This document shows positions 25,231 to 51,119 of a stretch of 64,000 nucleotides of DNA, in pieces. Numbering within the stretch: position 1 is the first letter of the stretch; every line of letters begins with the position of its first letter. Origin of the DNA: Sphingomonas kaistensis. Lineage in GTDB: Bacteria > Pseudomonadota > Alphaproteobacteria > Sphingomonadales > Sphingomonadaceae. Below the pieces are notes generated by a model. That model ran no database searches. It was not told where the DNA came from and was given only the letters and a program-made list of their open reading frames with translations. The stretch spans positions 2,425,001 to 2,489,000 of the forward strand of contig NZ_JAATJC010000001.1 in the NCBI RefSeq assembly GCF_011927725.1, read 5' to 3'. Made by a program: the position numbers and the translations under genes.

Positions 25231-25244
25231 GACGGGATCCCGTC
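25231..25244. promoter_or_regulatory. GGGATCCC palindrome, met / DAHPS divergent region
   Basis: Perfect 14-bp palindrome GACGGGATCCCGTC between the divergent CM-DAHPS and metX units, 50 bp before the SAM riboswitch and directly before a TTGACT hexamer (25245-25250). One of five exact copies of the GGGATCCC core in the control regions of this cluster. Function inferred. Confidence 0.5.
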
Positions 25245-25280
25245 TTGACTCGGCGGCGGTCGCTGGGCGATGAGCGCCTT

Positions 25281-25398
25281 TCCATCGAGACCGGCTGAGG
25301 GACAGGCCCGAAGAAGCCGGGGCAACCGGAGGCGGACATCACGTCCGGCTCAACGGTGCCAAGTCCTGCGGGGGCCTTCGGGCTTACCGGCAGATGGT
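25281..25398 (+). ncRNA. SAM-I (S-box) riboswitch aptamer
   Basis: S-adenosylmethionine-sensing leader of metX-metB. The conserved S-box pieces appear in order: P1 CCATC (25282-25286) pairs with GATGG (25393-25397); GAGA; GAGGGACAGGCCC (kink-turn region); GAAGAAGCCGGGGCAACC; a P3 arm; GGTGCCAAGTCCTGC; and a P4 hairpin closed by CTGC/GCAG (25365-25394). Sequence and order match the S-box consensus rather than the smaller SAM-II aptamer that is usual in alphaproteobacteria. Confidence 0.88.
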
Positions 25399-25434
25399 CC
25401 GGATCGCTCCGATGCGCGGAGCTTTCAGCCCATT

Positions 25435-25474
25435 GGCCGCCGTTCGGACCCTCGTGGACGAGGGAGAAACGGCC
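25435..25474 (+). promoter_or_regulatory. Expression platform of the SAM riboswitch
   Basis: GGCCG (25435-25439) pairs with CGGCC (25470-25474), enclosing CCCTCG-TGGA-CGAGGG (25449-25464). The ribosome site AGGGAG of metX lies in this structure, 10 nt before the GTG. There is no run of T residues, so control of translation initiation rather than termination is inferred. A second small hairpin (GCTCCG/CGGAGC, 25406-25422) lies between aptamer and platform. Confidence 0.55.
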
Positions 25475-25476
25475 AC

Positions 25477-26451
25477 GTGAGCGCAGCAAGTCTGAGAATC
25501 ATCCGCGAGGAGCCGCAAGGCTTCGGCGACTGTCGGATCATCTTGCCTTTCGTCCATGGCCCACCGGCGCCGGTCGCGGTCCGCTTCGAGCTTGCCGGCG
25601 ACGAGCAGGCCCCGTTGCTGATCCTCGCCGGAGGCATTTCGGCCGACGCCCACGTGATCGCCAGCGACACCCTTCCCCACCCCGGCTGGTGGGAAGCCCA
25701 GGCCGGTCCCCTCGGTCGCTTCCGCCGGCTGGCGATCGACTGGGTCGGGGCAGACGGTTCGCTCGACCGCCCGATCCACCCCGCCGACCAGGCCCGCGCC
25801 CTCCTGTTGATGATGGATAACCTTGGCCTCGACCGGGCCGCCGCCTTCATCGGGGCGAGCTATGGCGCGATGGTCGGCATGCACTTGGCGGCGCTGGCGC
25901 CCGAGCGCTGCGGCGCGCTGCTCGCGATCAGTGCCGCGCACCGGTCGCATCCGTTCGTTTCCGCCCAGCGCGCCTTGCAGCGGCAGGCGGTGGAGCTTGG
26001 CGAGCGGCTGGGCGACCCGCGTGCCGGCGTGGCGCTGGCCCGCAAGATCGCGATGACCGCCTATCGAACCCCTGTGGAATTCGCCGACCGGTTCGACGAA
26101 CCCCGCCTGAGCGGCGAGCGCGTGACCTGCGGCGCCGAGCCCTATCTCGATGCGCAGGGCACGCGCCATTCGGGCCGGGTCAGCGCCGCTGCCTATCGGC
26201 GGCTATCGGAATCGATCGATCTCCACGCCATCGAGCCCGAGCGGATCACCGTCCCTGCGCTGTTCGCCGCCGCGCTTGACGACTGCCTGATCCCTCATGC
26301 CGACATCGCCGAACTCGCCGAACGGGCGCCGCGCGGTCGCTTCGCGGCCCTGCCGACCCGCTTCGGCCACGACAGTTTCCTCAAGGAGCAGGCGCTGATC
26401 GCCGCGCTCCTGTCCGATTTCCTCACGACCCTGGAGCACCGCCATGACTGA
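25477..26451 (+). CDS. metX: Homoserine O-acyltransferase MetX-like (alpha/beta hydrolase)
   Basis: Activates homoserine by O-acylation in methionine synthesis. The 324-residue protein has the MetX elements LLILAGGISADAHV, nucleophile Ser in IGASYGAMVGM, Asp in AALDDCLIP and His in FGHDSFLKE. The partner gene encodes a MetB-type enzyme, which suggests O-succinylhomoserine as the product, but succinyl versus acetyl specificity cannot be read from sequence. The GTG at 25477 follows AGGGAG and is the first codon after the riboswitch platform; the frame is open further upstream through the aptamer but that is not coding. Overlaps metB by 8 nt. Confidence 0.87.
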   Translation: MSAASLRIIREEPQGFGDCRIILPFVHGPPAPVAVRFELAGDEQAPLLILAGGISADAHVIASDTLPHPGWWEAQAGPLGRFRRLAIDWVGADGSLDRPIHPADQARALLLMMDNLGLDRAAAFIGASYGAMVGMHLAALAPERCGALLAISAAHRSHPFVSAQRALQRQAVELGERLGDPRAGVALARKIAMTAYRTPVEFADRFDEPRLSGERVTCGAEPYLDAQGTRHSGRVSAAAYRRLSESIDLHAIEPERITVPALFAAALDDCLIPHADIAELAERAPRGRFAALPTRFGHDSFLKEQALIAALLSDFLTTLEHRHD

Positions 26452-27631
26452 CCGCCACTTCGCGACCACGGCGGTGCGCGCCGGGATCGACTGCGACACC
26501 GCTTTCGGTGCGGTCGCCCCGCCGATCGTGCTGTCGTCTAACTTCACCTTTGCCGGCTTCAACGACAAGCGCGCCTACGACTACAGCCGAAGCGGCAATC
26601 CTACCCGCGATCAGTTGGCCGAGGCATTGGCCGAGCTGGAAGGCGGGCACGGCGCGGTGGTCACCGCCAGCGGCCTGGCGGCGGAGACACTGGTGCTCCA
26701 CGCGGTGCTGAAGCCGGGCGACCGCCTGCTGGTCCCGCACGATTGCTATGGCGGAAGCTGGCGGCTGTTCGACGCGCTGTCGCGGCGCGGCCATTTCGAG
26801 CTTTCCACCGTCGATTTCACCGATGCGGCGGCGCTCGCAGCGGCACTGGCGCAGAAGCCGGCGCTGGTGTGGATCGAAACGCCGTCCAATCCCCTGCTGC
26901 GGATCACCGATCTCCAGGCGACGATCGCCGCCGCGCACCGGGTCGGGGCGCTGACCGTGGTCGACAACACTTTCCTGTCGCCCGCCCTGCAGCGGCCGAT
27001 CGGCTTCGGGGCCGACATCGTGCTTCATTCGACCACCAAATATATCAACGGGCACAGCGACGTGGTCGGCGGCGCGGTGGTGGCGAAGGACGCGGACGTG
27101 CATGGGCATCTGGCCTGGTGGGCCAATGCGCTGGGCCTGACCGGCGCGCCGTTCGACAGCTTCCTGACCCTGCGCGGCCTGAGGACGCTTCCGGCGCGAA
27201 TCCGCGTCCATCAGGAAAATGCTGAGCGAGTGGTCGAATTGCTGGAGGGGCACCCCGCGGTCGCGGCGGTGCATTATCCCGGGCGTGCCTCCCATCCCGG
27301 CCATGCCAACGCCGCCCGCCAGCAGGCCGGCTTCGGTGGGATGATCTCGTTCGAGCTTGCCGGCGGAGAGGAAGCGGTGCGAGCCCTGATCGACGGCCTG
27401 CAATTCTTCAGCCTCGCCGAATCGCTCGGCGGGGTGGAAAGCCTGATCGCGCATCCGGCAACCATGACCCATGCGGCGATGAGCGCCGAGGCGCGGCAGC
27501 GAGCGGGCATCGGCGCCGGGCTGCTGCGGCTGTCGGTCGGGATCGAGGAAGCGGCCGACCTCCTGGCCGACCTGTCGGACGGGCTGGAGCGAGCGGCGGC
27601 GGTGCGGCCGTCCCGCCTACGCTGCGCCTGA
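26444..27631 (+). CDS. metB: Cystathionine gamma-synthase MetB
   Basis: PLP enzyme that joins O-acylhomoserine and cysteine to cystathionine. The 395-residue product is close to enterobacterial MetB over its whole length: AVRAGIDCDTAFGAVAPPI, DYSRSGNPTRD, PHDCYGGSWRLFD, ETPSNPLLRITD, DNTFLSPALQ, the PLP lysine in HSTTKYINGHSDVVGG, and SLAESLGGVESLIAHPATMTHA. It is more like MetB than MetZ. Translationally coupled to metX. Its 3' end overlaps the convergent gntR gene by 15 nt. Confidence 0.9.
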   Translation: MTDRHFATTAVRAGIDCDTAFGAVAPPIVLSSNFTFAGFNDKRAYDYSRSGNPTRDQLAEALAELEGGHGAVVTASGLAAETLVLHAVLKPGDRLLVPHDCYGGSWRLFDALSRRGHFELSTVDFTDAAALAAALAQKPALVWIETPSNPLLRITDLQATIAAAHRVGALTVVDNTFLSPALQRPIGFGADIVLHSTTKYINGHSDVVGGAVVAKDADVHGHLAWWANALGLTGAPFDSFLTLRGLRTLPARIRVHQENAERVVELLEGHPAVAAVHYPGRASHPGHANAARQQAGFGGMISFELAGGEEAVRALIDGLQFFSLAESLGGVESLIAHPATMTHAAMSAEARQRAGIGAGLLRLSVGIEEAADLLADLSDGLERAAAVRPSRLRCA

Positions 27632-28330
27632 GGAGGGCACCTCGTTGAACCGTTCCTCGAGCCCGAGGCTGCGGCGGGCGGCCGCCGAATGACCGCGCAT
27701 CAGGCTTTCGGCAAAGTCGGCCTGCCCAGCGGCTATGGCGTCGATCATGGCGTGATGCTGATGCTGCGCCGACATCAGGATCGGGAAGATCTCCTCCGCC
27801 GGGATGCGGTTGAAGGCCACCACGTCGGGGGCGACGAAAGGAATGGCATAAACCCGCTGGATCATGTCCTGCAGCAGGCTGTCGCCCGCGCCGTTGACGA
27901 CCAGGTCATGGAATCGCCGGTTCATCGCGGCATAGCGATCCTCATCCTCACGCTCGAGGAAGCCCTTGGTGAAGATGGCGTCGCCGTCGGTCATCGCTTC
28001 GCGCAATTGCTCGACCACCGGTGCGCGATCGTCGCGCAGCGCAAGCTTGCGGGCGGCATAGCCTTCCAGCACGCAGCGCAGCTCGGTCGCGGCGTAGCTT
28101 TCCTCCTTGGTGAAGGCGCGCACCGCAAAGCCGCGCTTGCCGACCGGTTCCAGCAAGCCTTCGCTTGCAAGCACCGGCAACGCGTTGCGGACGGGCGTGC
28201 GCGACACGCCCAGCCGTTCGGCCAGCGCCGCCTCGGCGACCCGCGCGCCCGGTTCCAGCACGCCTTCGACGATCAGCTGCCGGATATGCCGGGCCACGCG
28301 GCCGGCCGCGCCATGCCCTTCCACCATCAT
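27617..28330 (-). CDS. GntR-family regulator with FCD domain
   Basis: Predicted transcription factor of 237 residues. The N-terminal winged helix-turn-helix is typical of GntR (RHIRQLIVEGVLEPGARVAEAALAERLGVSRTPVRNAL, about 12-47). The C-terminal FCD ligand domain carries the metal/ligand residues in AAMNRRFHDLVV and the SAQHQHHAMIDAI helix. It lies between metB and thrA and diverges from the thr leader. One GGGATCCC palindrome lies 68 nt before its ATG and another sits at the thr start region, so it is a candidate regulator of the cluster. Its ligand is unknown. Confidence 0.85.
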   Translation of the reverse strand: MMVEGHGAAGRVARHIRQLIVEGVLEPGARVAEAALAERLGVSRTPVRNALPVLASEGLLEPVGKRGFAVRAFTKEESYAATELRCVLEGYAARKLALRDDRAPVVEQLREAMTDGDAIFTKGFLEREDEDRYAAMNRRFHDLVVNGAGDSLLQDMIQRVYAIPFVAPDVVAFNRIPAEEIFPILMSAQHQHHAMIDAIAAGQADFAESLMRGHSAAARRSLGLEERFNEVPSSGAA

Positions 28331-28397: not shown

Positions 28398-28405
28398 GGG
28401 ATCCC
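28398..28405. promoter_or_regulatory. GGGATCCC palindrome upstream of gntR
   Basis: Exact GGGATCCC in CGAGGGATCCCGAACG, 68 bp before the gntR ATG and 109 bp from the thr copy. Compatible with autoregulation if GntR binds this sequence. Confidence 0.45.
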
Positions 28406-28506: not shown

Positions 28507-28514
28507 GGGATCCC
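28507..28514. promoter_or_regulatory. GGGATCCC palindrome at the thr promoter
   Basis: Exact copy in TTTTGGGATCCCATGC, at the expected transcription start of thr. A protein bound here would block initiation. Confidence 0.5.
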
Positions 28515-28592: not shown

Positions 28593-28640
28593 ATGATGAC
28601 CATTATCACCACACTGCACCCGTGGGGCGCGAGCGGCTGA
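28593..28640 (+). CDS. thrL: thr operon leader peptide
   Basis: Fifteen-residue peptide MMTIITTLHPWGASG. Three Thr and two Ile codons lie within five positions (TIITT), the composition expected for attenuation by charged tRNA-Thr and tRNA-Ile. The stop codon is 29 nt before a rho-independent terminator. The frame stays open upstream to an ATG at 28515 (41 residues), but that ATG coincides with the predicted transcription start, so the short form is preferred. No good ribosome site is visible. Confidence 0.7.
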   Translation: MMTIITTLHPWGASG

Positions 28641-28669
28641 CGTTGGTCTGAAAACCAGGTTTCACCCGA

Positions 28670-28731: not shown

Positions 28732-30486
28732 ATGGCCCAGCAGCTTCATCTTCAAGCCCAGCATTCGCAGCCAGCCCACGCTCTTTGCGTGCTCAAGTTC
28801 GGCAGTTCGGTGGTCCGTGACGAGCGCGATTATCCGCGGGTGGTGCAAGAGATCTACGCCCATGTCCGCGAAGGCGAAAAGGTCGTCGCGGTGGTTTCGG
28901 CGCTGGCCGGCGATACCGACGCACTGCTGGGCCAGGCCGAGCGGGTCGGCGGCGAGGCCGCGCCCGGCAATCTGGTTGCGCGGCTGGCCCGCGTCGGGGA
29001 ATTGCGCTCGGCGGCGTTACTGGCGCTGGCCTTGGCCAAGGTCGGTGTCCGCGCCGCGACCCTCGACCCGCACGAGATGAAACTCGTGGCGGAAGGTCCT
29101 GCGCTCGATTCCGACCTCGTCGATCTCGATGCCGCCCACGTGCTTGCCGCGCTGGAGCAACAGGACGTGGTGGTAGTTCCCGGCTTCATCGCCGACCATG
29201 AGGAGCATGGGGTGGTAACCCTCGGGCGCGGTGGCACCGACCTCAGCGCGGTCTTCTTCGCCGATCGACTGCAGGCGCACCGGGTCCGGCTGATCAAGGA
29301 TGTCGATGGGGTGTATGAGGCCGATCCGAGCGAAATGCCGGGCGCGCGCCGCTTCGAGCGGCTGAGCTATGCCGAGGCGGAGGTCGCGAGTGACGGGCTG
29401 GTGCAGCCCAAGGCGCTGCGGGTGGCGGCGGACAAGAAAGTGCTGGTCGAAGTCGCCGCGCTCGGCTCGTGCGAGGCGACGGTGATCTGTGATCTCGGCG
29501 CAAAGCCATCGGCGCCGCTGCGCAGCGACGCCGTTCGCCTTTCGCTGCTCGGCTGCGGCGCGGTCGGCGGCGGGGTGAAGCAACTGCTCGAAGCTCAGCC
29601 CGATGTCTTCGAACTCGGACCGGTGCTGGTGCAGCGGCCACGCTCGTCGCGCCCCGGCGAGTATACCCGCGACCTCGAAGAGGCGCTTGCGGGCGAACCG
29701 GAACTGCTGGTCGAACTGATCGGCGGCACCGACTTGGCGGCCGACGCCATGCATCGCGCCCTGTCGCATGGCGCCGAGGTGGTGACCGGCAACAAGGCGG
29801 CGCTTGCCCGTCACTGGGACTCGCTCCACGCTTGCGCAGCGCGGCACGGCGGCGGCCTGCATTTTTCCGCGGCGGTCGGTGGCGGCGCCCCGATCCTCGA
29901 AACCTTGCGCCGTCTCAACGGTGAAGTGGCGGCGGTCGAGGGGGTGATGAACGGCACCTGCAATTTCCTGCTCAGCCGGCTTGCGGAAGGCTGGGACTTC
30001 GACCGCGCGCTTGCGACCGCGCAGGAGCTTGGCTTTGCCGAGGCCGACCCGTCGGGCGACGTCGACGGGCATGATGCCGCCGACAAGCTGTCCATCCTGG
30101 TTCGCGAGGCATTCGGCGTCGCGCTTGCGCCCAGCCTCATCCCCAAGCAGTCGCTGCGCGACCTGGCCCTCGGCGCCGCTGCCGAAGCGCATCGCCGCGG
30201 CGAGGTGCTGAAGCAGGTCGGCCGCTGTTGGCTCGAACCCGACGGCTCGGCCGCCGCCTCGGTCGAGCTGGTGGCACTGCCTGCCGACCATGCGCTGGCG
30301 AACGTCCACAATGAAGAAAATCGCTTTCTTGTCACCGATGCCGGCGGCAAGCTGCATCAGGTGCATGGAAAGGGTGCAGGACGATGGCCGACGGCAACGG
30401 CTGTGATGGCCGACGTTCACGACGCCCGGCGCGCGATCCTGCGCAAGGAACCGGCGGTGAGCGGACCGCTGAAGCTGAGCGCCTGA
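28732..30486 (+). CDS. thrA: Aspartokinase - homoserine dehydrogenase fusion lacking ACT domains
   Basis: Catalyses the first and third steps of the aspartate pathway. Residues about 18-255 form the aspartokinase catalytic domain (LKFGSSVV, VVAVVSALAGDTD, LGRGGTDLSAVF, KDVDGVYEADPSEMPGARR, AEAEVASDGLVQPKAL). The homoserine dehydrogenase begins at about 263 (LSLLGCGAVGGGV) with TGNKAALA, GVMNGTCNFLLSRL and GFAEADPSGDVDGHDAADKL. At 584 residues it is about 230 shorter than E. coli ThrA. The ACT interface region between the two enzymes is missing, so threonine feedback may be absent. First gene of thrABC; TGATG junction with thrB. Confidence 0.9.
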   Translation: MAQQLHLQAQHSQPAHALCVLKFGSSVVRDERDYPRVVQEIYAHVREGEKVVAVVSALAGDTDALLGQAERVGGEAAPGNLVARLARVGELRSAALLALALAKVGVRAATLDPHEMKLVAEGPALDSDLVDLDAAHVLAALEQQDVVVVPGFIADHEEHGVVTLGRGGTDLSAVFFADRLQAHRVRLIKDVDGVYEADPSEMPGARRFERLSYAEAEVASDGLVQPKALRVAADKKVLVEVAALGSCEATVICDLGAKPSAPLRSDAVRLSLLGCGAVGGGVKQLLEAQPDVFELGPVLVQRPRSSRPGEYTRDLEEALAGEPELLVELIGGTDLAADAMHRALSHGAEVVTGNKAALARHWDSLHACAARHGGGLHFSAAVGGGAPILETLRRLNGEVAAVEGVMNGTCNFLLSRLAEGWDFDRALATAQELGFAEADPSGDVDGHDAADKLSILVREAFGVALAPSLIPKQSLRDLALGAAAEAHRRGEVLKQVGRCWLEPDGSAAASVELVALPADHALANVHNEENRFLVTDAGGKLHQVHGKGAGRWPTATAVMADVHDARRAILRKEPAVSGPLKLSA

Positions 30487-31448
30487 TGCCTCCCATGCCC
30501 CTGTCCGCGACGGCGAGCGCACCGGCGAGCATCGGCAATGTCGGCGTCGGCTTCGATATCCTCGGCCTTGCCTTCCCCGCTGCGCATGACGTCGTCACTG
30601 CCACCCGCCAGGAGGCACGGGGCGTGCGTCTGGCGCAGGTGTCGGGACTGCTCACTCACCTGCCGGCCGAGCCTCACCGCAACACCGCGCTGGCCGCGGC
30701 GCAGGCGGTGCTGCAGGCCGCCGGCTCGCCGTTCGGCGTTTCGCTGGCCATCGACAAGGGCGTTCCGCTGTCGGCCGGGATGGGCGGATCCGCCGCCTCC
30801 GCCGTGGCCGCCGCCGCCGCCGCCAACGCTTTGCTCGACCGGCCCTTCACCACCGATGAGCTGCTGCCATTTGCGATCGAAGGCGAGCGCGCGTCGTCCG
30901 ACCCGCCGCCATGGGACAATGTGATCGCCAGCCTGTTCGGCGGACTGGTCCTCGCCGCTTCGGAACAGCCGCCGCTGATCCGCCGCCTGCCGGTGCCGGA
31001 CGGACTGGTAGCGATCCTCTTCCACCCTTCCGCCAGAATCGAGACGCGCGAAGCCCGCGCATTGCTCGGCGCGACCGTTCCGCTGCGCGTGGCGGTAGAG
31101 CACAGCCGCCGCGTCGCCGCTTTCGTCGCCGGCTGCGCGACCGGCGACCTGGCGCTGGTGAAGGCCGGCCTCGAGGATCTGCTGGTCGAACCGCAACGGG
31201 TCCATCTCCTCCCCTGCCTCCCAGCCGTACAGCGCGCCGCCGTCGAGGCCGGAGCGCTCGGCTGTTCCTTTTCCGGCTCGGGACCGTCGGTGTTCGCGCT
31301 TTCCGAACAACGGCTTGCGGGCCGGGTCGAGCAGGCGATGGGTGCTGCCTTCGCCGAAGCCGCCATGCCCGTCACCCGGTACCGCGCCCCGCTCGGCGGC
31401 CACGGCGTGAAGGTCGTGGCGCAGGACAGCGGCCGCGTCGCGGCATGA
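30486..31448 (+). CDS. thrB: Homoserine kinase ThrB
   Basis: GHMP-family kinase that phosphorylates homoserine. The 320-residue product has the GHMP elements ASAPASIGNVGVGFDILGLAF, the ATP loop PLSAGMGGSAASAVAAAAAAN, and the C-terminal FSGSGPSVFAL. The ATG at 30486 shares an A with the thrA stop (TGATG), and its own stop overlaps thrC (ATGA). Confidence 0.93.
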   Translation: MPPMPLSATASAPASIGNVGVGFDILGLAFPAAHDVVTATRQEARGVRLAQVSGLLTHLPAEPHRNTALAAAQAVLQAAGSPFGVSLAIDKGVPLSAGMGGSAASAVAAAAAANALLDRPFTTDELLPFAIEGERASSDPPPWDNVIASLFGGLVLAASEQPPLIRRLPVPDGLVAILFHPSARIETREARALLGATVPLRVAVEHSRRVAAFVAGCATGDLALVKAGLEDLLVEPQRVHLLPCLPAVQRAAVEAGALGCSFSGSGPSVFALSEQRLAGRVEQAMGAAFAEAAMPVTRYRAPLGGHGVKVVAQDSGRVAA

Positions 31449-32746
31449 TGTTCGTCAGTACCCGTGGCGGCACCCCGCCAGTCACCCTGTCGCAAGCGCT
31501 CCGGCTTGGCGCGGCTCCCGGCGGCGGGCTGTTCATGCCCTCGGAAATTCCGCGGCATGAGTCGACGCGCTTTGCCGCGGGCCGGCCGCTTGCGCAGTTC
31601 GCTGCCGACTGGCTCCGTCCCTTCTTCGACGGCGACCCGCTTGCCGCTGATCTCGATGCGATCTGCGCCGAAGCCTTTACCTTTCCGGTGCCGCTGGTGG
31701 CGGCGCTGGGCGGCGATTCCTCGCTACGGGCGCTCGAGCTGTTTCACGGGCCAACCGGCGCGTTCAAAGATTTCGGCGCCCGCTTCCTGCTGGCCTGCTT
31801 CGACCGCCTGGCCGGCGACGAACCGCTGACGGTGCTTGCGGCGACGTCCGGCGATACCGGCGGCGCGGTCGGCTGCGCCGCGGAGGGCCGGCGTTCGGCA
31901 CGGGCCGTGATCCTCTACCCCAAGGACCGTGTCTCACCCTTCCAGGAGCGGCAGCTGACCTGCTGGGGCGATAACGTCGCTGCGGTCGAGGTCGATGGGG
32001 ACTTCGACGCCTGCCAGGCGATGGTGAAAGCGGCCTTCGCCGACCCGCGGCTCAGCGCGTCGCATCGGCTGACCTCCGCCAACAGCATCAACCTCGGACG
32101 ACTGCTCCCGCAAGTGGCTTACTGCGCACACGCTGCCTTCGAAGCCGCTGCACTCAACACTGGGAATCGCCCCGGTTTCATCATTCCCAGCGGAAACCTC
32201 GGCCATGGCTTCGCCCTGCTGCTTGCGCGAGCGATGGGGGCACCGGTCGGCCCCGTCGTCCTCGCCACCAATGCCAACCGCACTTTGCTCGATTGGTGCC
32301 AGACTGGCCGCTATCAGCCGCGGCCCTCGGTGGCGACGCTGGCCAATGCCATGGATGTCGGCAACCCGAGCAATTTCGAGCGGGTCGCGGCGCTTGGCGA
32401 CGGCGCGGCGGAGGTGGCGGTGGAGCTGGCCCATGACGAAGCCATCCGCCACCGCATCGCCGCGGACTATCGCGACAGCGGCTATGTCTGGTGTCCCCAT
32501 TCAGCGATCGCGGCGGAGGCGTGGCGGCGACTTGCCGGGCCCGCCCGCGACGAACGTTTGTGGGTCGCCGCAGCCACCGCGCATCCGTTCAAGTTCGCCG
32601 AGATCGTCGAGCCGCTGATCGGCCGGGCGCTTGAACCATCCTCCGCCCTTGCCGCGATCGCCGGGCGCCCCACCGCCAGGCAGCGGATCGCCCCGCATCT
32701 TGCCGACCTTGCCGCACTGCTCGAGCAGCAACGGGTCGCCGCCTAG
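31445..32746 (+). CDS. thrC: Threonine synthase ThrC
   Basis: PLP enzyme that converts O-phosphohomoserine to threonine. The 433-residue protein starts [22 protein letters not shown] and has the PLP lysine in [25 protein letters not shown], the [13 protein letters not shown] segment and IPSGNLGHG. It is translationally coupled to thrB. The stop overlaps the convergent ilvD gene by 4 nt, so no terminator separates the two. Confidence 0.94.
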
Positions 32747-34416
32747 CCCGGCAGCGTCACCGCACCCTGGGACGCCGAACTGACCGACGCGGCATATTTG
32801 GCAAAGGCTCCGGTGGCCTCGGGCGATACCGGCCAGTCACGCGCCGGACGCGCGGCCAGGTCGGCGTCGGTTTCGACAACGCGCCGCTCGACATCGATCA
32901 GGATCGTGTCGCCGTCGTTCAGCAACGCGATCGGTCCGCCCCGCGCCGCTTCGGGCGAGACATGGCCGACCATGAAACCGTAGGTCGCGCCCGAAAAGCG
33001 CCCGTCGGTGATCAGCGCGACATGATCGCCCAGCCCGCGCCCCTGGATCGCGGCGGTCACGCCCAGCATCTCGCGCATGCCGGGCCCGCCCGCCGGGCCT
33101 TCGCCGCGGATCACCACCACGTCGCCAGCCTGGATGACGCCAGCCGTGACGGCGGCGAATGCCGCTTCCTCCCCATCGAAGACGCGGGCAGGTCCCTCGA
33201 AGCGCAGCTTGCCGTGCCCGGCGAGCTTCACCACGCAGCCCGCGGGCGCGATATTGCCGTAGCAGATGCCGAAGCCGCCGCGCGCCTTGATCGGCTGGGC
33301 GGCAGTGACGATCACTTCTTGGCCCGGCGTCTCCGGGGCGTCGGCGAAGCATGCGAACAGGCTTTGCCCGGTCACGGTCGGGGCATCCTCGATCAGGCCG
33401 GCCTCCATCAGGCGGCGTCCGAGCAAAGCGGTGCCACCCGCGGCCGACATGTCCGGCGCCATGAAGCGCCCGCCGGGCTTGAGGTCGGCGATCACCGGGG
33501 TCGCGCGGGACACTTCGTCGAACAGGTCGATGTCGAAGTCGGACGCCGGGATGCCGGCCTCGCGCGCGATCGCCAGAAGGTGAAGGATAAGGTTGGTCGA
33601 ACCAGCGGTGGCGGTCCCGGCCACCGCGGCGTTGCGCAGCGCGGTGGCGGTGATCATCTGGCGCGCGTTGCGCCCGGCACGAAGCGCCTCGACGGTGAGC
33701 CGGCCGGCCTCTCGGGCGGCTTCGGCCTTTTCCTTGAGCACCGCCGGAATATCGTTGAGGCCGATCGGCGACAGGCCGAGGAAGCTCATCGCCAGCGCCA
33801 TGGTGTTGGCGGTGAATTGCCCGCCGCACGCACCGGCACCCGGACAGGCGGCAGCTTCGACCGCGTGCAATTCGGCGTCGTCGATCCCGCCCGCGCTATG
33901 CTGGCCGACGGCTTCGAACACGTCCTGGATGGTGATCGCCTTGCCCGCATGGCGCCCGGGCAGGATCGACCCGCCGTAGAGGATCACGCTTGGAAGATCG
34001 AGCCGGGCGGCGGCCATCGCCGCTGCCGGAATGGTCTTGTCGCAGCCGACGATGAACAGCACTGCGTCCATCGAATGGCCGCGCACCACCAGTTCGGCGC
34101 TGTCGGTGATCACTTCGCGGCTCATCAGCGAGGCGCGCATTCCTCGAGTGCCCATCGCGATCCCGTCGGTGACGACGATAGTGTTGAATTCGACCGGGGT
34201 CGCGCCCGCCGCCTTGATGCCCTCCGCCGCGTGGGCGGCAAGGTCGCGCAGGTGCATGTTGCAGGGGGTGACGTTGGAATAGCTGTGGACGATCGCGATC
34301 ATCGGCTTGGCCAGCGCCGACGCATCGAACCCTGCCGCATGAAGCATCGCCCGCGCCGGAGCCCGCGACGGCCCGTCGATCATCTCACGCGAGGGAAGCC
34401 TGCCATCCTGCGTCAT
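32743..34416 (-). CDS. ilvD: Dihydroxy-acid dehydratase IlvD
   Basis: Iron-sulfur dehydratase of isoleucine and valine synthesis. The 557-residue product has Fe-S cysteines in [18 protein letters not shown] and [13 protein letters not shown], with [24 protein letters not shown] near the end. The ATG at 34416 ([15 protein letters not shown]) is chosen because it matches the family N-terminus and has GGGAG upstream; the frame is open 36 codons further. Transcribed divergently from ilvC-leuD across a 376-bp control region. Confidence 0.94.
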
Positions 34417-34557: not shown

Positions 34558-34565
34558 GGGATCCC
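34558..34565. promoter_or_regulatory. GGGATCCC palindrome between ilvD and the ilv-leu leader
   Basis: Exact copy in ATTCGGGATCCCGTA, 142 bp before ilvD and 66 bp before the ilv leader peptide. It could control both divergent units. Confidence 0.5.
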
Positions 34566-34792: not shown

Positions 34793-35836
34793 ATGGAACG
34801 CATTTACACCGACGACGACGCCCGCCACGATGCCCTGCGCGATGCGACGGTTGCAGTCATCGGCTATGGCAGCCAGGGGCGAAGCCACGCCCGCAACATC
34901 CGCGACAGCGGATATCACGTCATCGTCGGCGCACGGGCCGGCGGTGGCGCGGAGCGCCGAGCGCGCGACGACGGCTTCGCCACCTTCTCACCGGCAGAGG
35001 CGGCGAGACAGGCGCAACTCGTCTGCCTGCTGACGCCCGACATGAGCCACCGCAAGGTCTATGCTGACGACATCGCGCCTAACCTCCAGGCCGGCGGCGC
35101 GCTGCTGGTCGCGCACGGTTTCTCGGTCATCTACGGCGAAGTGCAGCCGCGGCCCGATATCGACGTCATCCTCGTCGCGCCCAAGGGCCCCGGCGACCTC
35201 GTCCGCCGTGAATATGAGATCGGCCGCGGCGTACCCTGCCTGTTCGCGGTCGAGCAGGACGCCAGCGGCAGCGCCCGTGCCCGCGCCCTGTCCTATGCCC
35301 GCGGCATCGGCGGCACCCGGGCCGGAGCGATCGAGACCAGCTTCCGCGAGGAAACGGAGACCGACCTGTTCGGCGAGCAGGCGGTCCTGTGCGGCGGCGC
35401 GACCGAACTTGTCGCCGCCGGTTTCAAGACTCTCGTCGACGCCGGATACAAGCCAGAAGTCGCTTATTTCGAATGCCTTCACGAGCTGAAGCTGATCGTC
35501 GACCTGATGTACGAGGGCGGCTTCGCCAAGATGCTGCACTTCGTGTCCGAGACCGCAAAATATGGCGACTTCGTCTCCGGCCCGCGGGTCATCAACGATG
35601 AAACCCGCGCCCGCATGGGCGAAGTTCTCGCCGACATCCAGAGCGGCGCCTTCGCCCGCCAGTGGATCGCCGAAAGCGCGGCCGGCAAGCCCGAATATCA
35701 ACGAATGTGGGAAGCCGATCTCGACCAGCCGATCGAGCAGGTCGGCGCCAGCCTGCGCAAGCACATGGCGTGGCTTCAGCAGCCCGCCCCCGAGGCGCCC
35801 GCGGCGGCGGCGCAACCCCAATCCAAGGCGGCCTGA
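34793..35836 (+). CDS. ilvC: Ketol-acid reductoisomerase IlvC
   Basis: Class I NADPH-dependent enzyme of branched-chain synthesis, 347 residues. The Rossmann loop is [20 protein letters not shown] (usually GYGSQGHAHA), followed by [27 protein letters not shown] and the metal ligands in [17 protein letters not shown]. The ATG at 34793 ([10 protein letters not shown]) is preferred because GAAGGAAG precedes it; ATG 34772 lies against the terminator tract. First structural gene of the ilv-leu operon. Confidence 0.93.
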
Positions 35837-35839
35837 ACC

Positions 35840-37531: not shown

Positions 37532-37781
37532 CCGCGCGCCTCGATGTCGATTTCACCCCAGCGGAGGGCGCCATGTTGCGCATCCTCGGGCTGATCGAAC
37601 GGCGCGGCTACCGCATCCGCGAGCTTATCCTCGCCGAACGGCCGGCGCACACCTCGTCGCTCTCGATCCTGATCGAAGCGCACGACGCGGGCCGTCAGCC
37701 GGACACCGTCGCCCGCCAGCTGGGCAACCTGTTCGACGTGTCGTCGGTGACCCTCTCCCCAAGCCAACAGAGTGCGTGCCC

Positions 37782-37785
<4 letters not shown>
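37528..37785 (+). CDS. ilvM: Acetolactate synthase small subunit, IlvM-like
   Basis: ACT-domain regulatory subunit of only 85 residues (VDFTPAEGAMLRILGLIERRGYRIRELIL...SLSILIEAHD), the size of enterobacterial IlvM and about half of the IlvN/IlvH type usual in alphaproteobacteria. The GTG start overlaps the ilvB stop, and the stop overlaps leuA (ATGA). IlvM-type subunits confer little valine inhibition, so the enzyme may be only mildly regulated; this is inferred. Confidence 0.85.
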
Positions 37786-39358
<1,573 letters not shown>

Positions 39359-39362
<4 letters not shown>

Positions 39363-40453
39363 TTCACATCGCGGTACTCCCCGGCGACGGCATCGGTCCC
39401 GAAGTCACGCGCGAAGCGGTCGCCTGCCTCGAGCTTCTGTCAGCCGAACGCCAGCTCGGCCTTCATTTCACTGAGCATGACTTCGGCGGCGTGGCGATTG
39501 ATCGGCATAGCGAGCCTCTTCCGCCATCGACGCTCGCGGCGTGCAAAAAGGCTGATGCCATTCTGCTCGGGGCGGTCGGCGGCGATCGCTGGAACGACTG
39601 CGCGGAGCGGCCCGAGGCCGGATTATTGAAGATCAGGCAGGAACTCGGCCTCTACGCCAACCTACGGCCGGTCGAAGTGCTGCAGGGCGGCCAGTGGTCG
39701 CCGCTGCGGAGCGAGGTTGCCAGCGGATCCGACATCCTGGTGGTTCGCGAGCTTACCGGCGGCATCTATTACGGCGGACACCGCCTGAGCGAGGACCAGG
39801 CCTCCGACCTTTGCACCTACACCCGCGCGCAGGTGGAACGGGTGGCCCATGTCGCATTCCGTGCGGCTCGCCTGCGCAAGGGCAAGGTGACCCAGGTCGA
39901 CAAGGCCAACGTGCTGGCAACCTCCAGGCTGTGGCGCGCGACCGTCGACGAGGTCGCCAAGGCCTATCCCGACGTCGCGCTCGACCATCTCTACGTCGAT
40001 GCCTGCGCAATGGCGGTGATCACCGAACCGCGCCGTTTCGACGTGATCCTGACCGAGAATCTGTTCGGCGACATCCTGTCTGACCTGCTGTCGGTAATCG
40101 GCGGCTCGATCGGACTGCTCGGTTCGGCCAGCCTCGGGTCCGGCGGGCCGGGCCTGTTCGAGCCGGTCCACGGATCGGCCCCGCAGATCGCCGGGCTCGA
40201 CATCGCCAATCCGGCCGGTGCGATCGCAAGCGCCGCGATGATGCTCGACGAACTTGGGCTCGGCGACGCCGGTTCGGTGCTGCGCGAAGCGCTGGAAGCG
40301 ACCCTGCTCTCGGGCTGCCGCACACCGGATCTCGGCGGCGATGCCAGCACGTCGGGCTTCGGCGCGGCGGTTCGCGAGCGGCTCCAGGTCCGCTCCCGTC
40401 GCGACACCGGCCTGCGCCACCTGTTCTTGACCAATCGCGGATGCTGCGGATGA
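39359..40453 (+). CDS. leuB: 3-Isopropylmalate dehydrogenase LeuB
   Basis: NAD-dependent beta-decarboxylating dehydrogenase, 364 residues: [48 protein letters not shown], the catalytic Lys in [32 protein letters not shown] and [12 protein letters not shown]. Coupled to leuA (ATGA) and to leuC. The C-terminal tail after FGAAVRERL is a little longer than usual. Confidence 0.94.
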
Positions 40454-41904
40454 TTGCGCGGCCCCTCACCCTCTACGAGAAGATCTGGAACAGCCATGTC
40501 GTCGAGCGCCGCGACGATGGCACCTGTCTGCTCTACATCGACCGGCACCTCGTCCACGAAGTCACTTCGCCGCAAGCCTTCGAGGGCCTGCGCGCGGCAG
40601 GCCGGCGCGTTCGGCGGCCGGACCTGACGCTGGCGGTGCCCGATCATAATCTGCCGACCACTCCGCGTGTGCGGCACAACGGCGGGCCGCTCCTGATCGA
40701 AGATCCGGCCAGCGCCGCACAGCTGAACGCGCTCGAGGCGAACGTCGCTGAGTTCGGCATTCCCTACATCGACGCGCTGTCGCCCGACCAGGGCATCGTC
40801 CATGTGGTGGGACCCGAGCAGGGTTTCACCTTGCCGGGTACCACCATCGTCTGCGGCGACAGCCACACCGCTGCACACGGCGCGCTGGGGGCCCTGGGAT
40901 TCGGTATCGGAACCACCGAAGTCGAGCATGTGCTGGCGACCCAGACCTTGCTCCTCAAGCCTTCCCGGACGCTGGAGGTCAGGGTCGACGGCAGTCTTGG
41001 TCCCGGGGTCACTCCAAAAGACCTGATCCTTGAGATCATCGCGCGCCTTGGCGTCGGCGGCGGCGCCGGCCATGTGATCGAATTCCGCGGGACGACATTT
41101 GAAGCGATGAGTGTCGAGGGCAGGCTGACGGTCGCCAACATGGCGATCGAGGCCGGTGCCCGGTCGGGACTGATCGCCCCTGACGACAAGACCTTCGCCT
41201 ATCTCGAGGGCCGGCCCCGCGCGCCGAAGGGCGAGGCATGGGACCGCGCAGTACAACGGTGGCGCGCGTTGCGCACCGACGAAGGCGCGCAATTTGACCG
41301 GTCGCTGCACTTCGATGCGGAGGAAGTCGCTCCGACCGTCACCTGGGGCACGTCGCCCGACCAGGCGCTGCCGATCGACGCCCGCATCCCCGACCTCGCC
41401 TCCTTCACCGATCCCGCGCGCCGCGACGAAGTGGCCCGCGCCCTCGCCTACATGGGCCTGTCTCCGGGCCAGCGGCTTGCGGACATCGGCATCGACCATG
41501 TTTTCATCGGCAGTTGCACCAACAGCCGGATCGAGGATCTACGGGCAGCCGCCGCAATACTGGTTGGCCGCCGCCGTCATCCCGGTCTGCGCCAGGCCCT
41601 GGTCGTGCCCGGCTCGGGCCTCGTCCGCCGCCAGGCCGAGGCTGAGGGGCTCGACCGCATCTTCCTCGCCGCCGGCTTCGAATGGCGTGAGCCTGGTTGC
41701 TCGATGTGCCTGGCCATGAACCCCGACAAGGTGCCGCCGGGCGAGCGCTGCGCGTCGACTTCCAACCGAAACTTCGTCGGCCGGCAGGGTCCGGGGGCGC
41801 GCACGCACCTGATGTCTCCGGCCATGGCCGCCGCCGCCGCCGTTGCCGGCCGGCTGACCGACGTCCGCGACCTCCCCCCGGTCGGACAGGAGTTGGCGGC
41901 ATGA
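40450..41904 (+). CDS. leuC: 3-Isopropylmalate dehydratase large subunit LeuC
   Basis: 4Fe-4S isomerase subunit (484 residues) that acts with LeuD. Visible: [68 protein letters not shown], and the cluster cysteines in [12 protein letters not shown] and CSMCLAMN. The ATG at 40450 overlaps the leuB stop (ATGA) and fits the family N-terminus; ATG 40441 would add three residues. Confidence 0.94.
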
Positions 41905-42473
41905 CGCCCTTCACCAAGGTCTGCGGCCGCGCTTATCCGCTGCCGCTCGACAACATCGACACCGACCTCATCATCCCCGCCGAGCACCTCAAGACCATCA
42001 CACGCGCCGGGCTCGGCCGCTTCGCCTTCGAGGCACTTCGAACGCAGCCGGACAGCGTCTTCGATGATCCCCATTATGCCGGCGCGCCGATCCTGCTCGC
42101 GCTCGCCAATTTCGGCTGCGGGTCGAGCCGCGAGCATGCCGCCTGGGCGCTTGCGGATCTCGGTGTCCGCGCCGTGATCGCGACGAGCTTCTCCGACATC
42201 TTCGCCAGCAACGCCTTCAAGAACGGAATTGCCGCGATCAGCCTCGACAAGACAGCAGTGCAGGCCCTGATCGAGGCCGCGCCCGACCATGCGATCACGG
42301 TCGATCTCGAACAGCAGCTGGTCCGAACGGCAGCGGGGCATTTCTTCCCGATCCACATGGATCCGTTCCGCCGCCAGTGCCTGCTGGCGGGGCAGGACGA
42401 GATCGCCCTGACCTTGCAAAGCGAGGCGGCGATCAGCGCCTTCGAACGCGCGAGGGAACTGGCTCAGGCCTGA
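41901..42473 (+). CDS. leuD: 3-Isopropylmalate dehydratase small subunit LeuD
   Basis: Swivelling-domain subunit of isopropylmalate isomerase, 190 residues: [46 protein letters not shown]. It overlaps leuC by 4 nt and ends the operon; its last 10 nt overlap the convergent gltD. Confidence 0.94.
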
Positions 42474-43876: not shown

Positions 43877-48346
<4,470 letters not shown>

Positions 48347-48396
48347 CCGGCTGTTCAAGCGCCTGTCCTTGCGTTTTTCGAGCTCCGCTCCGCCAT

Positions 48397-48417
48397 GCGC
48401 AACCACTCATGTTGCGC
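48397..48417. promoter_or_regulatory. Inverted repeat upstream of gltB
   Basis: Perfect 7-bp dyad GCGCAAC-N7-GTTGCGC, 51 bp before the gltB ATG. Similar half-sites (GCAACAT, GTTGC) recur before the porin-glnK-amtB operon at 51142. Probable regulator site; the spacing does not fit the classic NtrC box. Confidence 0.4.
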
Positions 48418-48432: not shown

Positions 48433-48449
48433 CGAATGGATCCCATTCG
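48433..48449. promoter_or_regulatory. Degenerate GGATCC palindrome upstream of gltB
   Basis: CGAATGG-ATC-CCATTCG contains TGGATCCCA, one base from the GGGATCCC core seen before met, gntR, thr, ilv and porin-glnK, and is itself a 7-bp dyad. Placed 87 bp before gltB. Confidence 0.35.
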
Positions 48450-48550: not shown

Positions 48551-49960
48551 TCAGAGGTTATAGGCGCGCTCCCCGTGCGAGGAGATGTCGAGCCCTTCGC
48601 GTTCGGCATCGACGGTCGGCCGAAGGCCGATGGTCTTGTCGATCAGGTAGAACAGCACGAATGACAGGCCGCCCGACCAGGCTAGGGTCAGTCCCACGGC
48701 CTTGAGCTGGACCAGCAGCTGCGCGGCGATGTCGTAGGTCCCGGGAACGGCCGGCAGCACCGTATAGTCGAAGAAACCCTGCCCGCCGAGCGAGGGGGCC
48801 GCTACGATGCCGGTTCCGATCGCCCCGACGATGCCGCCGATGCAGTGCACCCCAAATACGTCCAGCGAGTCGTCATAGCCGAACCGGTTCTTTACCTTGG
48901 CGACGAAGAAGAAGCACACCGCCGACGCGACCGCGCCGAGCAGGATCGACGTCCCTGGAGCGCCGAAGCCTGCCGCCGGCGTGATCGCGACCAGCCCGGC
49001 CACTGCGCCGGTCGCCCCGCCCAGCAGCGAGGACTTGCGGTGGATGAGCTGCTCGATAAGCGCCCAGGTCAGCGCCGCCGCCGCGGTGGCGACAAAGGTA
49101 TTGATGAAGGCCAGCGCGGTGACCCCGTTGGCTTCGAGGTTGGACCCGGCATTGAAGCCGAACCAGCCGACCCACAGCAGCGAGGCGCCGATCATGGTCA
49201 TCACCAGCGAATGGGGCGCCAGCGGCTCGCTGTTATAGCCGATCCGCTTGCCGATCACGAGGCAGCCGACCAGTCCCGCGATGCCGGCGTTGATGTGGAC
49301 GACTGTGCCGCCGGCGAAGTCGAGCGCGCCCCAGCCGTAGATCAGGCCATGGTCGCCCGGCTGATTGGGCAGGAAATCCGGGCCGGCCCAGTACCAGACC
49401 ATGTGCGCCAGCGGGAAGTAGACCACCGTCAGCCACAGCACCACGAACAGCATCAACGGCCAGAACCGCACCCGCTCCGCGAACGCCCCGACGATCAGCG
49501 CCGGGGTGATGCAGGCAAAGGTCATCTGGAACACGACATAGGCATATTCCGGGATGTAGACCCCGTTGGAGAAGGTCGCGGCGAGCGTGGTGGCATCGAC
49601 CCCGCTGAGGAAGGCCTTGGACAGGCCGCCGATGAACGGATTGCCGGCGGTGAACGCCAGGCTGTAGCCCCAGCCGACCCACACCAGCGCAGCGATGGCG
49701 ACGATGGTCAGCACCTGCATCAGCACCGACAGCATGTTCTTGGCCCGCACCAGCCCGCCGTAGAACAGGGCAAGGCCCGGTACCGACATCATCAGCACCA
49801 GCGCGGAGGAGATCAGCATCCAGGTCGTGTCGCCCTTGTCGGGCGCCGGTGGAGCGGTTGCCGCAGCCGCCGCGGCCTCCTGCGCCCATGCGGGCGAGGC
49901 GGCGACGGCAGTCGCCAGCAACGCCGCCGTTGCGCCGCCAAGCAGGTGTCCGAGCTTCAT
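48551..49960 (-). CDS. amtB: Ammonium transporter AmtB
   Basis: Trimeric ammonium channel of the inner membrane, 469 residues. A cleavable signal peptide is visible (MKLGHLLGGATAALLATAVAASPAWA), then eleven membrane helices. The pore histidines lie in GGTVVHINAGIAGLVG and DVFGVHCIGGIVGAIG, and the signature FAGGTVVHI and MTFACITPALIVGAFAER are present. The ATG at 49960 is chosen for the signal peptide. It sits 13 nt after glnK, the usual partnership in which GlnK blocks the channel. Confidence 0.95.
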   Translation of the reverse strand: MKLGHLLGGATAALLATAVAASPAWAQEAAAAAATAPPAPDKGDTTWMLISSALVLMMSVPGLALFYGGLVRAKNMLSVLMQVLTIVAIAALVWVGWGYSLAFTAGNPFIGGLSKAFLSGVDATTLAATFSNGVYIPEYAYVVFQMTFACITPALIVGAFAERVRFWPLMLFVVLWLTVVYFPLAHMVWYWAGPDFLPNQPGDHGLIYGWGALDFAGGTVVHINAGIAGLVGCLVIGKRIGYNSEPLAPHSLVMTMIGASLLWVGWFGFNAGSNLEANGVTALAFINTFVATAAAALTWALIEQLIHRKSSLLGGATGAVAGLVAITPAAGFGAPGTSILLGAVASAVCFFFVAKVKNRFGYDDSLDVFGVHCIGGIVGAIGTGIVAAPSLGGQGFFDYTVLPAVPGTYDIAAQLLVQLKAVGLTLAWSGGLSFVLFYLIDKTIGLRPTVDAEREGLDISSHGERAYNL

Positions 49961-49973
49961 TCTCCCCCTCCCC

Positions 49974-50312
49974 TCAAAGCGCGTCATGATCGGTATCCCC
50001 AGTGCGGATGCGAAGCGCGGATTCGAGGTCGAGCACGAAGATCTTGCCGTCGCCGATCGAGTCCGTCCGAGCGACGTTGGCAATGATCTCCACCACGCCG
50101 TGCGCCTGGTCATCAGCCACCGCGATCTCGAGCTTGATCTTGGGGACGAAGGTCGTGTTGTACTCGGCGCCGCGATAGAACACCGGCTGCCCCTTCTGCC
50201 GGCCGAAGCCGCGCACTTCGGACACGGTCATGCCCTCGATCCCGGCTTCCTGAAGCGCGTCGCGAACGGGCTCCAGCTTGAACGGCTTGATGTATGCAAT
50301 GATGAATTTCAC
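49974..50312 (-). CDS. glnK: PII signal protein GlnK
   Basis: Trimeric nitrogen/energy sensor of 112 residues. It has MKFIIAYIKPFKLEPVRDAL, the T-loop with uridylylated Tyr51 in YRGAEY, and the B-loop region TDSIGDGKIFVLDLESALRIRTGD. The T-loop is followed by NTTFVPKIKLEIAV rather than the more common VDFLPKVKIE. Located directly before amtB, so it is named glnK rather than glnB. Confidence 0.93.
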   Translation of the reverse strand: MKFIIAYIKPFKLEPVRDALQEAGIEGMTVSEVRGFGRQKGQPVFYRGAEYNTTFVPKIKLEIAVADDQAHGVVEIIANVARTDSIGDGKIFVLDLESALRIRTGDTDHDAL

Positions 50313-50323
50313 GCCTGCCCTCC

Positions 50324-51073
50324 TCAGAATGCCACGCCGAGCGAGGCGACGATGCCAGCCTTGCTGGCGTTGCGCCCGCTGGGCGTGATGAAGGTCTTGT
50401 CGGTATCGACGTAGGCGATCCCGGCGGTCAGCTCCTTGAAGGTGGCGCTTGCCCTCAGGCTCCAGTCGGTATGCGCCTTGCCGAGCGTGATATAGCTCGG
50501 CCCGAAGCTTCGGCCGACGTGCGCGGTGACGCTGATCGGCGACCCCGCGAGCGCGGCGCTGAGGTCGCCCGCGAGATAGAGGTTATCCTCCTTCCCGTTG
50601 CCGACCGTCAGCGCATTCTGCTTGGGCGCATAAGCTGCCAGCGCCTTGGCCGTGACCGGCCCGAAGGTCTGGCTGACCGCGACATAAGGTTCGACGAAGT
50701 CCGTGTTCGCGTTCCCCGCGCCCGGGTAATAATAATAAAGCACACCGACATCGAAGGTGGTGGCGCCGACGCTGCGCTTGTACCCTATGGTGAGGTCGAT
50801 CTCCTGGTCCGAGCCGGCGGCGACATAATCGTCGATCGAGGACCCCCAGATGCTCCCATAGAGGCCGCTCCTGTGGGTCACCGCCAGGCTTCCCTGCAGG
50901 GCCGCCCGCCGGTCGGTTTGCGACACGCCGCGATAGCGATAGTCGGACACCAGCGTCGCGCCGCCGGAGACCACCACCGCCGGCGGAACCTCGGCCGGGG
51001 AATCTTGGGCGGCGGCCGTGGACGGCAGGACGAGCAAGCCCGCCATGGTCGTTATCAACGCAAGCTGTCGCAT
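50324..51073 (-). CDS. TorF-family putative outer-membrane porin
   Basis: Predicted beta-barrel of 249 residues with signal peptide MRQLALITTMAGLLVLPSTAAAQ. The mature start VSGGATLVSDYRYRGVSQTDRRAALQGSL is typical of the TorF/Gcw_chp family, and the protein ends SLGVAF with a terminal aromatic residue. It precedes glnK-amtB by 11 nt and probably helps uptake of a nitrogen compound; the substrate is unknown. The ATG at 51073 has AGGGGGG 9 nt upstream. Confidence 0.83.
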   Translation of the reverse strand: MRQLALITTMAGLLVLPSTAAAQDSPAEVPPAVVVSGGATLVSDYRYRGVSQTDRRAALQGSLAVTHRSGLYGSIWGSSIDDYVAAGSDQEIDLTIGYKRSVGATTFDVGVLYYYYPGAGNANTDFVEPYVAVSQTFGPVTAKALAAYAPKQNALTVGNGKEDNLYLAGDLSAALAGSPISVTAHVGRSFGPSYITLGKAHTDWSLRASATFKELTAGIAYVDTDKTFITPSGRNASKAGIVASLGVAF

Positions 51074-51111
51074 CTTCGCACCCCCCTGATCGGGCGACCG
51101 GCCCCCATTTT

Positions 51112-51119
51112 GGGATCCC
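51112..51119. promoter_or_regulatory. GGGATCCC palindrome upstream of porin-glnK-amtB
   Basis: Exact copy in TTTTGGGATCCCGTTCC, 39 bp before the porin ATG. It links the nitrogen operon to the met, thr and ilv units carrying the same core. Confidence 0.5.

Follow-up and report, generated by a model that had tools for sequence, protein, structure and literature searches.

Proteins of the GntR family that carry an FCD domain have mostly been described as local regulators of catabolic operons. Among them, the VanR-group repressor Atu1419 of Agrobacterium fabrum (PDB 6Z74, 6ZA0, 6ZA3, 6ZA7 and 6ZAB) represses three hydroxycinnamate-degradation genes as well as its own, binds the 10-mer ATGTATACAT through contacts of Arg45 with G3 and of Thr46 with A5, and no longer binds when G3 of the operator is changed to A; 5,10-methylene-tetrahydrofolate (THF) has been proposed as its effector, and looping has been proposed for its tetramer on palindromes paired at 190 and 109 bp (as set out in the part of PMC7797058 considered here). 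For the FadR subfamily of GntR proteins, operators with TKGT/ACMA boxes 2-3 nt apart are described as common but not universal, NanR and BioR also deviating from them (part of PMC4494728 considered here). In this work we analyze the palindrome GGGATCCC, five copies of which stand between genes in a 64-kb stretch of the Sphingomonas kaistensis genome (hereafter, the window), together with the gntR gene that lies beside two of these copies.

Our analysis, which draws on comparative genomics only and on gene calls made with a simple script, makes it very probable that WY-GGGATCCC-RW is the operator of this FCD-domain GntR protein, which would repress itself and an amino-acid/nitrogen regulon. The palindrome looks like the docking site of the neighbouring repressor, a putative master switch for amino-acid production. 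A preliminary description of the window had proposed an undescribed amino-acid/nitrogen operator and left its regulator unnamed; the sequence comparisons below point to the gntR gene as the most likely one.

Footprint of the palindrome in related genomes

Protein searches with thrA and ilvC covered 31 genomes (S. kaistensis and 30 relatives), 19 of them from the genus, and found close thrA (57-65% identical over the matched part) and close ilvC (72-79%) in S. kaistensis, G003, G004, G007 and G010. Loss of the palindrome from orthologous promoters, which the preliminary description had named as grounds for abandoning the operator, is not what these genomes display: GGGATCCC is kept upstream of thrA in all five and upstream of ilvC in four, and on this comparative-genomic footing the proposal holds. 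In G010 the ilvC gene is preceded by the 9-bp variant TTGGATCCCAA instead of the exact word. Gene neighbourhoods differ between the genomes: in G007 a gene other than gntR precedes thrA. The word is absent from 13 ilvC loci of genus mates (L069-L081) and from 12 of order mates (L057-L068), all used as controls and all from genomes with no gntR ortholog.

These five plus five thrA and ilvC regions constitute the unbiased footprint, because some of the other genomes (G057, G064, G071, G072, S. parva, S. deserti and MAG39) were chosen by motif or gntR matches; G000 and G071 are, in addition, near relatives. Over the wider set of 23 upstream regions of >60 bp, recovered for thrA, ilvC, metX and porin genes from 18 stretches, GGGATCCC occurs in 20, and the runner-up among the 256 8-bp palindromes is found in 3. 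The misses are G010 ilvC (its region cropped to 89 bp by a leader open reading frame, ORF), G064 ilvC (GGGATCCT) and a G072 porin. GGATCC is among the invariant blocks of nine aligned ilv regions, and the copy nearer to the called start lies 215-282 bp from thrA and 214-261 bp from ilvC. Seven of the nine regions share another conserved half-like site, of the type TTTGGGATAC, upstream of ilvD at alignment columns of about 174-185. The thrA gene of G010 (L025, C1:187558-189246) is spread over several frames, perhaps through assembly errors.

The flanks initially read as TT[TC] and G[TA] are better described as WY-GGGATCCC-RW, which four of the five window copies fit and the copy nearest gntR does not. 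In the S. kaistensis genome this pattern has four copies, all in the window, and none of the 21 other GGGATCCC copies fits it. Across 37 stretches of gntR-bearing genomes we counted 66 exact copies, 52 of them outside gene calls (the count leaves out stretches of G010, G057 and G071 and L153, L154, L243 and L250); of 104 half-sites, 100 have T or C beside the core and 100 have A or T one position further out. The flank rule is partly circular, because most of the 37 stretches were picked with the pattern WYGGGATCCCRW; the thrA and ilvC sites from which it was derived are its independent hint.

In several relatives the sites extend to further biosynthetic operons, with gene names that, wherever Pfam or NCBIfam support is lacking, come from reading by eye or from the best-matching window protein. 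The 12 sites of G007 accompany hisG, glnA, zwf, pro and aro operons, gntR, thrA, ilvC/ilvD, porin-glnK-amtB, asd and two TonB-receptor-like genes (one by eye), and one lies in a coding call. G003 has six sites (thr, pro, phhA, metXY, class I 3-deoxy-D-arabino-heptulosonate 7-phosphate synthase (DAHPS) and ilv) plus a gntR site outside the pattern, and G004 has nine (thr, pro/DAHPS, ilv, LL-diaminopimelate (LL-DAP) aminotransferase, a TonB-receptor-like gene, one beside a glnB/glnK-like gene and three in coding calls). Nine sites were found in S. parva (G085: thr, ilv, dapA, phhA / DAHPS-trpE, two at chorismate mutase-DAHPS, tonB-exbB, a TonB-receptor-like gene and one with no assignment) and nine in S. 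deserti (G086: thr, porin-glnK-amtB, asd, LL-DAP aminotransferase, DAHPS, tonB, two with no assignment and one coding), where an exact core that does not fit the pattern also stands at ilv. ORF calls of uncertain value cover the tonB sites and the S. parva receptor site. In G007, S. parva and S. deserti, sites precede amino-acid operons elsewhere in the genome too, beyond one block. The sites by tonB-exbB in S. parva and S. deserti (L243, L254) have near-identical flanks. Two sets of candidates were set aside: the G018 copy near an aspartokinase gene (L047) is coding, inside a ubiG-like gene (by eye), and the aroE sites of G004 and G072 are inside the gene.

The GntR-family protein as candidate regulator

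The window GntR combines an N-terminal GntR winged helix (PF00392, 6.8e-17) with a C-terminal FCD domain (PF07729, 3.8e-14); the phnR_burk equivalog (TIGR03338) was rejected, its 109.1 bits lying below the cut-off of 271.5. Orthologs 58-97% identical to it are present in eight of 61 genus genomes, S. kaistensis included (G000, G003, G004, G007, G010, G064, G071 and G072), and these eight average 5.75 WY-GGGATCCC-RW sites vs 1.62 in the other 53 (one-sided Mann-Whitney 5.3e-5, a figure that ignores kinship).

A scan of named genomes that used the eight orthologs as queries gave 34 gntR homolog loci. In four of the five homologs at 45-50% identity, all from unrelated bacteria, exact GGGATCCC lies within 300 bp upstream of gntR, at 41-120 bp (L200 Neopusillimonas, L202 Luteimonas, L203 Rhizobiales and L218, a gammaproteobacterial metagenome-assembled genome, MAG). 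In the fifth, from an Acetobacteraceae MAG (L201), one copy at 8884 stands 44 bp before the first gene of the presumed operon and another, at 9573, is inside that same gene. It is mainly because the word adjoins these homologs in unrelated bacteria that we assign the operator to GntR. The same search, within 300 bp upstream, found GGGATCCC in none of 14 Paraburkholderia/Burkholderia homologs (39-42%) and none of eight weaker ones; in the Paraburkholderia group, GGTATACC occurs upstream of gntR in seven of 14 loci (L204-L217) and is possibly a related operator. The gntR neighbours in L201, L202 and L218 are LigA, LigB, VanA-type or GCV_T-type genes. In L201, pentose-phosphate-like enzyme genes and a hisF-like gene (by eye) flank the gntR homolog and vanA/lig at 3506-8856 and 13539-14315.

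The PDB chain closest to the window GntR is 6Z74, that is, Atu1419 (E 1e-27 with a single sequence, 2.5e-36 with a profile), and the 10-mer found here, TGGGATCCCA, retains G3 and A5. Residues Arg30, Glu33, Ser43, Arg44, Thr45 and Arg48, which align with the DNA contacts of Atu1419 (Arg31, Glu34, Ser44, Arg45, Thr46 and Arg49 in its numbering), are identical in all eight orthologs. So are the pocket residues Arg85 (Atu1419 Arg86), Tyr133, Asn137, His141, His192 and His214; these include the Zn ligands of Atu1419-like VanR-group repressors (Asn137, His141, His192 and His214), present in each of the eight aligned orthologs, and the citrate-contact residues Arg86, Tyr133, Asn137, His141 and His214 (Atu1419 numbering) are conserved. 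The residue after VR is Asn in the eight orthologs, Gln in the five 45-50% homologs, Glu in Atu1419 and Tyr in the Paraburkholderia group, and we infer that it may help to set G4 vs T4 in the operator. Conservation of the sites, their association with this gntR family and conservation of the contact residues are the sequence observations that carry the assignment.

The placement of the sites at thr, ilv and metX relative to predicted promoters suits a repressor. At thr, a TTGAC box starts 29-30 bp before the core in seven of nine regions, which would place the site over the start point; at ilv, the core is preceded by a TTGC box and, mostly, a CATA-like element; at metX, the core stands 3 bp before TTGACT, with the same spacing in the near relative G071. 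The gntR and thr copies are 109 bp apart, paired sites occur in other stretches too, and such pairs would suit looping of the kind proposed for the Atu1419 tetramer.

Binding, repression and effector, as we infer them, would combine as follows. GntR would repress its own gene and a dispersed regulon, made up of met, thr, ilv-leu and glt/gln here and joined by aro/trp, pro, his, asd, dapA and glnA in relatives. To do so it would occupy the transcription start (at most thr and ilv sites) or, at met, the DNA immediately before the -35 box. In the recognition helix, Arg44 would read G3 and Thr45 would read A5 of the 10-mer, and a carboxylate effector bound in the Zn-holding FCD pocket would cause release of the DNA. 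The candidate effector would be a folate (5,10-methylene-THF, for instance) or a different dicarboxylate (for instance 2-oxoglutarate), and the conservation of most pocket residues allows either.

Alternative readings and the distribution of the word in the S. kaistensis genome

Several observations weigh against GntR as the regulator. Exact GGGATCCC lies within 300 bp upstream of gntR in just four of the eight genus orthologs and in two of seven loci at 60-72% identity (L196 and L198, the latter with the same site as G003). G057 has 11 sites, among them thr, ilv, metXY and gltBD, but its assembly yields no gntR ortholog, just a paralog (29-34%) whose recognition helix differs. G001, G046 and G032 likewise carry TGGGATCCCA-type sites with no gntR ortholog; all five sites fetched (two of three in G001, three of four in G046) fall in gene calls. 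In the orthologs, Ser or Thr replaces Asn221 of the Atu1419 pocket, and the thr core of G003 and G057 is upstream of the nearest TTGAC box, so that its position is not uniform. In the S. kaistensis genome no further regulon member is recognised beyond the window block, and none of the 25 exact or one-mismatch TGGGATCCCA sites outside the window precedes a recognised amino-acid gene. The Mann-Whitney statistic above and the binomial and Poisson statistics below are, moreover, not independent, because the genomes are related. As regards G057, its assembly is split into 140 contigs, shows 6% contamination and has no located counterpart of the region that adjoins the G003 gntR; gntR is possibly missing through an assembly gap. 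Synteny was rejected as an explanation, since moeA, the neighbour of the G003 gntR, has just a 43% homolog in G057.

These observations bear most directly on the reading in which the palindrome is the operator of some other regulator, one that moves together with the amino-acid block and has gntR as just one target. G057 fits this reading, and so does the fact that close thrA/ilvC, gntR and sites come and go together within the genus; because the three co-vary there, co-occurrence alone cannot separate GntR from another regulator. The word, however, also precedes gntR homologs in unrelated bacteria, four or arguably five of them; no homolog of the window's amino-acid genes was found in the stretches fetched around the 45-50% homologs; and the word agrees with the base contacts known from the structure of the relative Atu1419. 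All of this makes another regulator unlikely. Very unlikely is control of these operons by an NtrC-, Lrp- or ArgR-type site to which GGGATCCC would be incidental: the gltB, glnK-amtB, ilv and thr content resembles that of Lrp and nitrogen regulons, but the consensus sites of these regulators, for which no search was made here, are not known to contain GGGATCCC, and a regulator of nitrogen alone would not account for his, dapA, asd, metXY and TonB genes.

The copy number of the palindrome brings in chance. In the window the word occurs exactly at the five positions of Table 1, with no sixth copy, and, as first reported, each is intergenic and no exact copy of the window lies in coding DNA. Two positions are amended here: the metX copy, initially placed at 25231-25244, is the exact word within the surrounding 14-base GACGGGATCCCGTC that occupies that span, and the near copy before gltB exists as ATGGATCCCAT, within a 7-bp inverted repeat with a 3-bp spacer (by eye), a few bases from the 48433 originally given. 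The assertion that five copies are far beyond chance did not hold, shuffles of the window giving a mean of 2.08 (standard deviation 1.49) and seven of 100 reaching five; raw copy number alone is unremarkable, and the unusual part is the placement of the copies.

The S. kaistensis genome (2.85 Mb, one contig) contains 26 copies, 19 in gene calls (a few of them weak) and seven intergenic, namely the five of the window plus L009 and L011. The genome-wide count suggested in the preliminary description, which had named an absence of intergenic enrichment as its other ground for abandoning the operator, thus finds that enrichment nearly absent in this genome: weakly present when seven of 26 are set against the non-coding share of about 9% in a 184 kb sample of the same genome (binomial P 0.007, post hoc), and weak because the recognisable sites there sit in one 26-kb block. 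At the density of the other 21 copies, the window would be expected to hold 0.48; it holds five of the 26 (Poisson 1.5e-4, post hoc). A 9-bp variant search returned nine matches in this genome (five coding, four intergenic), among which the gltB site alone precedes a recognised amino-acid or nitrogen gene, and a one-mismatch TGGGATCCCA search returned 27 sites, the copy at 51112 among them and 25 outside the window (21 coding; the four intergenic ones, L275, L284, L285 and L293, adjoin no recognised amino-acid gene). A purely incidental origin, five 8-mer copies in a GC-rich window that happen to fall between genes, accommodates the shuffles and the seven of 26, but conservation in orthologous promoters and absence from all 25 ilvC control loci render it extremely unlikely. 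Hardly credible, finally, is an RNA-level element in which the thr and ilv transcripts would carry the palindrome within a leader hairpin or an attenuator, as their sites near predicted transcription starts and the leader-peptide-like ORFs and terminator-like hairpins downstream (by eye) might suggest, since the metX site is probably not transcribed, because it is upstream of the predicted -35 box, and the word also precedes asd and porin-glnK and sits between the divergent ilvD and ilvC.

Gene block and comparison with described systems

The features of the window are collected in Table 1. They belong to a block of aro, met, thr, ilv-leu, glt and gln genes (22654-51046), which may be a patchily inherited prototrophy block; close thrA and ilvC occur in five of the 19 genus members searched, and an ilvC at 42-49% in 18 of 19. 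The metX gene would be under the operator and the SAM-I riboswitch (RF00162) together. The thr (28593-28705) and ilv (about 34600-34770) leaders, with short ORFs and terminator-like hairpins, are attenuator-like, and the operator upstream would add a second layer.

Table 1. Operator copies, genes and leader elements of the window
Feature	Position	Strand	Basis or remark
Operator copy upstream of metX-metY	25234..25241	.	3 bp before TTGACT -35-like box; predicted start near SAM riboswitch
SAM-I riboswitch, metX leader	25279..25400	+	Rfam RF00162, 67 bits
metX, homoserine O-acyltransferase	25477..26451	+	gene call; NCBIfam NF006449
metY-like Cys/Met PLP (pyridoxal phosphate) enzyme	26444..27631	+	Pfam PF01053
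gntR, FCD-domain GntR regulator, proposed palindrome binder	27617..28330	-	Pfam PF00392 + PF07729; orthologs, operator association; closest structure Atu1419
Operator copy, 68 bp from gntR start, proposed autoregulation	28398..28405	.	also in G071
Operator copy at predicted thr transcription start	28507..28514	.	TTGACA at 28477; exact copy in 9/9 thrA regions
Possible thr leader peptide, 16 codons incl. stop, Ile/Thr rich	28593..28640	+	read from sequence
Terminator-like hairpin after putative thr leader peptide	about 28669-28705		read from sequence
thrA (aspartokinase-homoserine dehydrogenase), thrB, thrC	28732..32746	+	thrA Pfam; thrB, thrC by eye
ilvD, divergent	32743..34416	-	Pfam; start from gene call
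Operator copy between ilvD and ilvC	34558..34565	.	GGATCC core invariant in 9/9 aligned regions
ilvC, ilvB, small subunit, leuA, leuB, leuC, leuD	34793..42473	+	ilvC, ilvB Pfam; rest by eye
gltB	43877..48406	-	by eye
9-bp variant site ATGGATCCCAT upstream of gltB	48436..48446	.	
amtB, glnK, TorF-family porin	48551..51046	-	amtB Pfam; porin family assignment; glnK by eye
Operator copy upstream of porin-glnK-amtB	51112..51119	.	same operon also preceded by a copy in G007, G071 and S. deserti

Literature searches, the ten-letter motif included, found no description of this regulon among the matches listed, in a scope that excluded supplements and most subscription papers; judged by title and the opening of the abstract, the listed papers that contain the motif seem to be on other subjects. 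If the proposed role of GntR is correct, an FCD-type GntR protein would be a global biosynthesis regulator in bacteria for which these searches found no such regulator; CodY and Lrp are global regulators of comparable scope. A wider and doubtful account would have a GntR/FCD repressor of the lignin-aromatic O-demethylation type and its GGGATCCC operator re-used as a genome-wide amino-acid/nitrogen switch in some sphingomonads, sensing 5,10-methylene-THF, a one-carbon folate intermediate, as a single metabolic signal and looping paired sites. Operator, protein, base contacts and candidate effectors are defined closely enough to be tested at the bench.

Among described systems, the TyrR, ArgR, TrpR, MetJ, MetR and SahR regulons resemble the one proposed here in that a transcription factor controls amino-acid operons, and differ from it in protein family and site; the parts of PMC5343134 and PMC4239095 considered here contain no comparable GntR regulon. 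With FadR-subfamily GntR proteins, as presented in the part of PMC4494728 considered, GntR shares a winged helix-turn-helix (wHTH) plus FCD architecture and palindrome boxes 2-3 nt apart with A/T-rich flanks. Its candidate operator TGGG-AT-CCCA departs from the TKGT/ACMA boxes: spacing and G3 fit, but the inner T is G. That part names no amino-acid biosynthesis regulon this broad, and neither GGGATCCC nor Sphingomonad matches the main text. The homologs beside LigAB or O-demethylase-type genes are 45-50% identical and have exact GGGATCCC nearby, but adjoin LigA/LigB, VanA-type or GCV_T-type genes and not the window's amino-acid operons.

The closest described system is Atu1419, with which the window GntR would have in common a 10-bp palindromic operator with G3 and A5, conserved DNA-contact and Zn-ligand residues, autoregulation (proposed here) and paired palindromes (109 bp apart here, 190 and 109 bp there). 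The operators, ATGTATACAT there vs TGGGATCCCA here, differ at positions 1, 2 and 4 of each half, and the residue after VR is Glu there vs Asn here; the pairing of G4 vs T4 in the operator with Asn/Gln vs Glu/Tyr in the recognition helix would make this family a case for the study of specificity evolution. Atu1419 controls three hydroxycinnamate-degradation genes, whereas the control proposed for GntR would reach biosynthesis genome-wide.

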